Positions 25,018 to 26,194 of a stretch of 64,000 bases of DNA are shown in pieces. Origin of the DNA: Thermotoga neapolitana DSM 4359 (GTDB lineage Bacteria > Thermotogota > Thermotogae > Thermotogales > Thermotogaceae); the NCBI RefSeq assembly GCF_000018945.1, contig NC_011978.1, positions 714,729 through 778,728 of the forward strand, given 5' to 3'. The position numbers were made by a program, and so were the translations under genes. The notes under the pieces were generated by a model. The model saw nothing but the letters and a program-made list of their open reading frames with translations. It ran no database searches and was not told the DNA's origin. Each line of letters starts with the position of its first letter. Positions within the stretch are counted from its first letter, which is position 1.

Positions 25018-25180
25018 GTTTCAATACTTCCTTAGAGGTATGGAAACAGGTCTGTGTCTTTGACCGTCGCCAGGAACTGCTCGGGTTTCAATACTTCCTT
25101 AGAGGTATGGAAACGAGTGTTCTGGCAGGCGAAAGAACTTTTTGATGAGAAAGTTTCAATATTTCCTTATAGGTACAAAC
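25018..25180 (+). CRISPR. Small CRISPR array, three 30-nt repeats, two spacers
   Basis: Two perfect 30-nt repeats (GTTTCAATACTTCC...ATGGAAAC) lie at 25018-25047 and 25085-25114. A third (25153-25180) is shortened by 2 nt and carries several changes, so this is the leader-distal end. Spacers are 37 nt (25048-25084) and 38 nt (25115-25152). From memory this is the repeat type common in T. maritima arrays. It differs from the 29-nt repeat at the left edge. No cas genes are near. Confidence 0.95.
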
Positions 25181-25226: not shown

Positions 25227-25255
25227 TTGACAAATATATGTAAAAAGTATATAAT
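25227..25255 (+). promoter_or_regulatory. Consensus promoter for the leader peptide and ferredoxin genes
   Basis: TTGACA (25227-25232) and TATAAT (25250-25255) match the sigma-70 consensus exactly with a 17-nt spacer. Initiation near 25262 leaves only about 12 nt before the leader ORF, whose ribosome site GAGGTG is at the very 5' end of the RNA. Confidence 0.85.
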
Positions 25256-25273
25256 TTCCTCGAGGTGAAAGCT

Positions 25274-25312
25274 ATGAGAAAAGTGTGCTGGTGCTGGTGG
25301 TGTGGTTATTAA
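25274..25312 (+). CDS. Cys/Trp-rich leader peptide MRKVCWCWWCGY
   Basis: A 12-residue ORF starts at ATG 25274 behind GAGGTGAAAGCT and ends with TAA at 25310-25312. It holds three Cys and three Trp in a row of six (CWCWWC), far from random composition. It follows a perfect promoter and directly precedes a hairpin that masks the ribosome site of the ferredoxin gene. The most likely role is a regulatory leader that senses Cys or Trp supply, or a metal or redox state through the nascent Cys residues. It could instead be a small metal-binding peptide in its own right. Too short for homology; protein expression is unproved. Confidence 0.6.
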   Translation: MRKVCWCWWCGY

Positions 25313-25314
25313 CA

Positions 25315-25359
25315 CTCCCTCCCTATTGCAAAAAGATAAAAAACAGGATTGGGAGGGAG
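25315..25359 (+). promoter_or_regulatory. Hairpin masking the ferredoxin ribosome-binding site
   Basis: CTCCCTCCC (25315-25323) pairs perfectly with GGGAGGGAG (25351-25359) across a 27-nt A-rich loop. The 3' arm is the ribosome site for ATG 25366. The 5' arm begins 2 nt after the leader stop codon, so a ribosome at the end of the leader would melt the stem. No T-run follows, so it should act on translation rather than termination. Confidence 0.75.
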
Positions 25360-25365
25360 ATTGGA

Positions 25366-25782
25366 ATGGAATCTAAGAACACTCCGGTGATTGGAAAGGA
25401 TGCCCTTGGGCGGGAGATTCGTGATCTTTCTAAAATTCCCTGGTGGGGTGTAGATAGAAAAGCAATAGAGTGGTATCCAGTCATCAACTACGATAAATGT
25501 GCAACGTGTGGTATTTGCTTTGTAACTTGTGGAAGGCGAGTATTTGACTTTGACAGAAAAGAAGGGAAAGTGATAGTAGCACGTCCTTACAATTGCATGG
25601 TCGCATGTCAGACGTGTATGAATCTTTGTCCAACAGGAGCAATAAGTTTTCCTGATGTTTCTTACATAAAGAAATTGGTCGCACAGAATAAAATTGTAAA
25701 AAAAACTTTTGAAATAATAAAACCTCTGCTACCTGATGAACACCTATCAATAAAGGAAACAGAAACTGATCCTGAACCATAA
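25366..25782 (+). CDS. Two-cluster 4Fe-4S ferredoxin-like protein, 138 aa
   Basis: It has two cluster motifs: [11 protein letters not shown] (CxxCxxCxxxC) and [13 protein letters not shown] (CxxxCxxCxxxCP). This indicates a soluble electron carrier or cluster-binding partner. A 40-residue N-terminal extension (with [14 protein letters not shown]) and an acidic C-terminal tail flank the core. The frame is open 27 codons upstream, but ATG 25366 follows the GGGAGGG site and the upstream part is the regulatory leader. The NifX-like gene 13 nt downstream suggests a role in assembling or delivering Fe-S clusters. Its translation is probably controlled by the leader and hairpin. Confidence 0.88.
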
Positions 25783-26170: not shown

Positions 26171-26194
26171 AGAGGGGCCAAAGCCCCTCTTTTT
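26171..26194. terminator. Bidirectional terminator between the NifX-like gene and valS
   Basis: AGAGGGGC (26171-26178) pairs with GCCCCTCT (26183-26190) around the loop CAAA. T-runs follow on the plus side and, in the other direction, TTTTGTTTC on the minus strand. It serves both converging genes. Confidence 0.9.

Follow-up and report, generated by a model that had tools for sequence, protein, structure and literature searches.

Among described leader peptides, ErmCL-ermC and the catA86 leader are translational attenuators, TnaC and SpeFL are arrest leaders, and trp-type supply attenuators carry the codons of a scarce amino acid within a short leader. In mycobacteria, operons are preceded by leaderless polycysteine leaders, as far as the title under which this work is cited describes them (Canestrari et al. 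2020, cited in PMC9094748), and in Bordetella the copper-sensing upstream ORF CruR (DUF2946) carries a CXXC motif and a RAPP arrest motif and acts via Rho termination (PMC9426467). Here we report a 12-codon leader ORF and a predicted masking stem ahead of a ferredoxin gene in Thermotoga neapolitana DSM 4359, identified in a stretch of 64,000 nucleotides (the window). We interpret the arrangement as probably being a translational attenuator of the leader-peptide type whose readout is the position of the ribosome and which is linked to sulfur status.

The features of the locus are collected in Table 1. A first-pass annotation of this DNA had claimed a perfect TTGACA-17-TATAAT promoter, a tiny ORF with three Cys and three Trp in six codons, and a 9-bp perfect stem that begins two nucleotides past the stop and masks the ferredoxin ribosome site. 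The promoter was confirmed to the base, all three Cys and all three Trp of MRKVCWCWWCGY fall inside codons 5-10, and the stem is present as described.

Table 1. Features of the leader locus and the genes that follow it (positions are those of the window)
Feature	Position	Strand	Basis or remark
Promoter TTGACA-17-TATAAT	25227..25255	+	read from sequence; TTGACA 25227-25232, TATAAT 25250-25255
Expected transcription start	near 25261-25263	+	follows from promoter position
Leader ORF ribosome site GAGGTG	25262..25267	+	6 nt 5' of leader ATG
12-codon leader ORF MRKVCWCWWCGY	25274..25312	+	ATG 25274, stop TAA 25310-25312; peptide conserved in 15 loci
Stem 5' arm CTCCCTCCC	25315..25323	+	two bases past leader stop; offset 29 nt from the start of the Cys5 codon
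A-rich loop, 27 nt	25324..25350	+	sequence
Stem 3' arm GGGAGGGAG, the ribosome site of the ferredoxin gene	25351..25359	+	pairs with CTCCCTCCC
Ferredoxin-type 4Fe-4S protein, 138 aa	25366..25782	+	Pfam Fer4/Fer4_7; orthologs collected
NifX/NifB-like protein, Nitro_FeMo-Co domain, 122 aa	25796..26164	+	PF02579, E 1e-24

The exact promoter arrangement occurs three times in the 1,884,562-base genome, compared with no control matches, and the five leader-carrying relatives of the genus have the same -35/-10 region. With a transcript start near 25262 the predicted 5' UTR of the leader is about 12 nt, which fits the 'Short' 5' UTR class of T. maritima (11-17 nt; PMC3636130). Directly 5' of the promoter lies the end of a CRISPR array (window 25018-25178), consisting of two intact GTTTCAATACTTCCTTAGAGGTATGGAAAC repeats and a degenerate third, and in a relative (G008) the equivalent place is occupied by a long array of this repeat. 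An Rfam search of the region returned no match above threshold, the sub-threshold matches being confined to CRISPR repeats and a chance match of snRNA type, and the leader region corresponds to no known Rfam cis-regulatory RNA.

We take the ferredoxin to be the ortholog of TM1815 and the NifX/NifB-like protein to be of the TM1816 type; the latter matches the solved structures 1t3v and 1o13 over nearly its full length. Taken at its longest, the ferredoxin ORF would begin at GTG 25285, inside the leader and in another frame. However, the extension upstream of ATG 25366 is not conserved, so that 25285-25365 was rejected as part of the protein and ATG 25366 is almost certainly the true start. Automatic annotation may wrongly lengthen the ferredoxin by these 27 residues. 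The T. maritima ferredoxin Tm1815 is listed with reduction potentials of -320 and -725 mV (PMC12929197), the value for the second cluster being unusually low. Between the NifX-like gene and a convergent valyl-tRNA synthetase gene there is a hairpin, GAGGGGC-caaa-GCCCCTC, followed by a T-run (window 26172-26194), which is likely to be a terminator shared by the two genes.

Compared with the described systems, the leader works like the ermC type, with which it shares a short leader ORF, a stem-held ribosome site, a predicted release by ribosome position and a conserved nascent peptide. The ermC type is characterised by a translated short ORF that has its own ribosome site and lies directly upstream on the same transcript; here such an ORF and its ribosome site are present and conserved, and the ORF is predicted to be translated. 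We nevertheless do not file it as a member of that type because no competing anti-mask hairpin was found consistently in the leaders of the nine stem loci that were folded in full; in place of a two-hairpin rearrangement, the arm here directly follows the leader stop. The peptide is unrelated to those of ErmCL-ermC, TnaC and SpeFL, and its targets concern sulfur rather than antibiotics, tryptophanase or polyamines. Scarce-amino-acid codons in a short leader are shared with the trp-type attenuators, but here the readout is a ribosome-site mask and not a terminator, the order of the residues is fixed, and a stall at the key codons would keep the gene off instead of turning it on. The mycobacterial polycysteine leaders, going by the description in their title, have in common with this one a Cys-rich short ORF ahead of an operon and a proposed link to cysteine; on the same description they are set apart by a consecutive run of Cys and a leaderless start, whereas we find C-x-C with Trp-Trp, a ribosome site for the leader, a fixed C-x-C-W-W-x-G and a stem that masks the Shine-Dalgarno (SD) sequence. 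CruR likewise involves a nascent upstream peptide, paired Cys, and control by proposed ligand sensing and ribosome arrest, but it is a much longer, full-size and probably exported protein that works through Rho, in contrast to a translational readout from about 12 residues in which neither CXXC nor RAPP occurs. The open-licence literature on Cys leaders, on upstream ORFs that respond to sulfur and on TM1815/TM1816 contained no report of the leader. We regard it as a leader-peptide family that is new, as is the set of genes it precedes; the signal may be new as well.

The default RNA fold predicted at this locus sequesters the ferredoxin ribosome site. Folded in isolation, the stem-loop has a z-score of -3.6, with none of 200 shuffles folding as well, and at -18.3 kcal/mol the masking helix is the strongest ribosome-site mask among the 55 genes of the window that have a ribosome site (median -5.3). 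Pairing of the ferredoxin ribosome site is predicted to be 0.99 even at 80 C. The arrangement of leader and stem is far from chance. A locked default fold, with an arm that sits where a terminating ribosome would cover it, would also suit plain translational coupling, in which translation of the leader just opens the stem, nothing is sensed, and the ferredoxin is made in proportion. For such coupling any peptide would suffice, and it leaves unexplained both the occurrence of R-K-V-C-x-C-W-W-x-G in two phyla and the association with sulfur genes; we consider it improbable.

Conservation of the peptide was assessed on ferredoxin orthologs gathered by ferredoxin sequence, with the leader not used as a criterion. 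Nine Thermotogota genomes from three families, this one included, carry the leader directly 5' of the ferredoxin ortholog with the consensus R-K/R-V-C-x-C-W-W-x-G. The variants are MRKVCWCWWCGY in two species, MRKVCRCWWCGH, and a GTG-started VRKVCQCWWCGY in three species; another genus has MRRVCQCWWRGH, a second family MRKICHCWWCGH and a third family a TTG-started LIRKVCFCWWHGD. More distant ferredoxin orthologs (e.g. G003, G052, G054, G066 and G093) have no leader upstream. In one further genome of the same genus (G009; L012/L206) the ferredoxin gene contains in-frame stops and the region upstream has ATGAAGAAGGTCTAA (MKKV-stop), which is possibly a decayed leader. A similar strict peptide pattern was present in 8 of 103 Thermotogota genomes, on every occasion directly 5' of the same ferredoxin, and the strict 12-codon pattern had no match in 682 genomes of Bacillota and a Deltaproteobacteria phylum.

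Additional members, in which the residues of the CxCWWxG pattern are consequently fixed by the search, were found with that pattern beyond the ferredoxin set. A scan of the whole collection with a V/I form of the peptide gave 18 matches. Three of them (L042, L043 and L059) are short ORFs followed by an evident partner gene; the remaining 15, which seem to be fortuitous and to lie within other frames, were discarded. In Armatimonadota a core-plus-stop pattern gave 25 matches, against 8 with a reversed-pattern control, and all were rejected except those in G103 and G371, the only two with a proper start and a downstream gene. Viral contigs were also scanned and yielded no leader. The leader loci total 15, made up of the nine Thermotogota ferredoxin loci and six others, and the leader is known in two phyla, Thermotogota and Armatimonadota.

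The first-pass annotation had proposed looking in relatives for the short ORF with its Cys and Trp codons and for compensatory changes in the stem. The ORF is present in relatives and its key codons are changed only synonymously: in a comparison that includes the two Armatimonadota loci, where Cys5, Cys7, Trp8, Trp9 and Gly11 are fixed by the search, every difference at codons 2, 5, 7 and 11 is synonymous, both kinds of difference occur at codons 3 and 4, and codons 6, 10 and 12 are where amino-acid changes cluster. The conserved residues of the leader are Cys5, Cys7, Trp8, Trp9 and Gly11. Codon 10 is variable, specifying C, R, H, V, D or K, and of the three cysteines to which attention had been drawn, Cys5 and Cys7 are conserved but the third is not.

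As for the stem, 7-11 contiguous base pairs join the region just past the core to the downstream gene's ribosome site in 11 of the 15 leader loci (this locus and 10 of the 14 others), six of the eleven belonging to one genus. The paired arms are CUCCCUCCC/GGGAGGGAG, UCCCUCCCC/GGGGAGGGA, CCCUCCUCU/AGAGGAGGG, AGCUCCUCC/GGAGGAGCU, GGCUUCUCC/GGAGGAGUC, UGUAUCCCUCC/GGAGGGAUACA and GGCCUCC/GGAGGUC. Other families, and one further phylum, form the stem anew from compensating sequences. Across families the arms were compared by geometry, and a formal pair count was not used because MAFFT failed to align them. Individual SD-masking helices had shuffle frequencies of 0 to 0.041. Since GGAGG or a close variant occurs in any ribosome site, pairing that extends further, as it does in G096 and G034, carries the most weight. 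The 5' arm starts 28-31 nt past the first base of the Cys5 codon in all stem loci. In G034, which has no stop after the core, the ORF continues to 32 codons with 16 extra residues, and both stem and spacing are kept. For the nine stem loci that were folded whole, the masked state is the one predicted for free RNA.

An SD-masking stem is absent from the remaining four leader loci (G013, G015, G021 and G103), so the joint design of leader and stem that had been proposed applies to eleven loci and does not extend to these; either another readout exists there, or the stem is decaying or being lost. Retention of the peptide without the stem, together with its paired-Cys motif, would suit a functional 12-residue product, such as a metal- or sulfur-binding micropeptide or a partner of the encoded proteins, for which the stem only sets the translation ratio. 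Such a product is difficult to reconcile with the occurrence of the same peptide before unrelated proteins (ferredoxin, two transporter families and rhodanese), always directly upstream in cis, with the additional residues past the core in G034, and with a core-to-stem distance that is near-fixed, as a ribosome readout predicts. We regard this explanation as very improbable.

A ribosome-gated switch is, in our view, highly likely, and its design is well supported. In free mRNA, the sequence, folding and comparison indicate that the arm just past the leader stop would lock the ferredoxin ribosome site. Counted from the first base of the codon in the P site, a ribosome protects about 15-17 nt of RNA on its downstream side. 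When the P site holds codon 12 and the A site the stop, protection would extend to approximately Cys5 + 37 and take in the entire 9-nt arm; with Trp9 in the P site, coverage would stop at the edge of the arm, and with Cys5 or Cys7 the arm would be free. On the basis of this coverage relative to the arm, the stem would be expected to melt, and the ferredoxin ribosome site to open, once a ribosome stands at codon 12 or the stop, and a ribosome held at Cys5, Cys7, Trp8 or Trp9, or the absence of a ribosome, would leave it locked. The polarity originally claimed, in which a finished leader opens the site and a stall or failure to start masks it, agrees with this spacing.

The signal that gates the switch would be either a sulfur or thiol-reactive compound sensed by the nascent chain or the supply of Cys/Trp-tRNA. 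In the latter case the leader would gauge charged Cys-tRNA (and Trp-tRNA), such that scarce Cys causes a stall at codon 5 or 7, the stem stays shut and the sulfur-export and Fe-S genes are off, and ample Cys turns them on. Supply leaders usually bear runs of the sensed residue, and neither a strict order, nor the invariant Trp8-Trp9 and Gly11, nor a near-fixed length is needed for counting charged tRNA; G013 and G015, moreover, retain the peptide with no stem to read it. In favour of supply sensing, Cys5 and Cys7 are invariant and Cys10, where a stall would reach the stem edge, is free to vary, the measured spacing is such that the arm stays free when a ribosome stalls anywhere in codons 5-9, and cysteine-responsive polycysteine leaders are known in mycobacteria, to the extent that the title of the work describes them (Canestrari et al. 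2020, cited in PMC9094748). On balance we consider control by supply unlikely.

For sensing by the nascent chain, R-K-V-C-x-C-W-W-x-G would set the dwell time of the ribosome, probably via the exit tunnel, and the C-x-C pair would probably contact a sulfur or thiol-reactive ligand. The fixed order of residues, the invariant Trp-Trp and Gly, the spacing kept without a stop in G034 and the retention of the peptide without a stem all suggest that the peptide sequence matters beyond its codons. Direct sensing of this kind is a serious possibility, which we place somewhat below an even chance.

The genes found downstream of the other leaders bear on the nature of the signal. Within Thermotogota, the core pattern located the leader ahead of a TauE/SafE sulfite exporter gene (G034), a SLAC1 family transporter gene (G096), and a 56-residue ORF followed by SLAC1 (G035), and in Armatimonadota it precedes a rhodanese gene and then TauE (G103, L043) or TauE directly (G371, L104). 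In G021, from a fourth Thermotogota family, a TTG-started shorter leader, LKFVCHCWWVG, was found by the leader pattern before a different small ferredoxin. The first-pass annotation had assigned the switch to the ferredoxin/NifX-like pair; the leader is indeed there, but it is found ahead of TauE/SafE, SLAC1 and rhodanese genes as well, a set that speaks for sulfur handling rather than for iron or for Cys/Trp supply in general. Ferredoxin, SLAC1 and TauE genes are clustered elsewhere in Thermotogota without the leader (L189, L190, L193 and L198), in company with TusA, YeeE-like, DsrE/F/H, dihydrolipoamide dehydrogenase, GcvH-like lipoyl protein and OsmC-like genes (YeeE, DsrF/H and lipoamide dehydrogenase being named by eye) and several ArsR-type genes. 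Because of this clustering with sulfur genes, the genes downstream of the leader seem to belong to a single inorganic-sulfur system. From their context, the ferredoxin of the sulfur-trafficking cluster, the sulfite/anion exporters and rhodanese may all be tied to sulfur status. The same context favours a sulfur or thiol-reactive compound, or cysteine supply as a proxy for sulfur, as the signal, and we judge a sulfur-linked signal to be rather likely.

Operons of arsenic type, with ArsR, ArsC and an SBF/ACR3-type transporter, contain some of the leader loci, and the signal could thus be arsenite or a metal, not sulfur. The operon of G021 (L143) comprises ArsR, ArsC, an SBF/ACR3-type transporter, the leader, the small ferredoxin, an MvhD-like protein (named by eye) and a lipoamide dehydrogenase-like protein. 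ArsR-type genes lie near 13 of 15 ferredoxin/SLAC1 loci without the leader, versus 4 of 15 loci with it, and in G096 the ferredoxin locus has ArsR but no leader whereas the SLAC1 locus has the leader but no ArsR. As the lengths of the stretches differ and six leader loci are from one genus, this contrast is no more than a hint that the leader can take the place of ArsR control. Taken at its broadest, and put forward tentatively, the leader may represent a new class of arrest peptide, mostly of 11-16 residues with the core C-x-C-W-W-x-G, that directly senses a sulfur or thiol-reactive compound (sulfite, sulfane sulfur or arsenite) in the exit tunnel, regulates genes for ferredoxin, sulfurtransferase and sulfite/anion export in both Thermotogota and Armatimonadota, and replaces ArsR-type repressors.

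A device common to two phyla and placed before sulfur genes suggests a new sulfur-tied translational switch. If this is true, the leader would be among the shortest conserved regulatory peptides, would form a translational switch that is predicted to hold at 80 C, and would provide a new bacterial route that ties sulfur handling to the ribosome. As the motif is short and the readout simple, more members should be findable before TauE, SLAC1 and rhodanese genes. The role of the poorly understood ferredoxin/NifX-like pair would also become open to testing, since the leader that it shares with sulfite exporters and a rhodanese would identify these as its regulatory partners.
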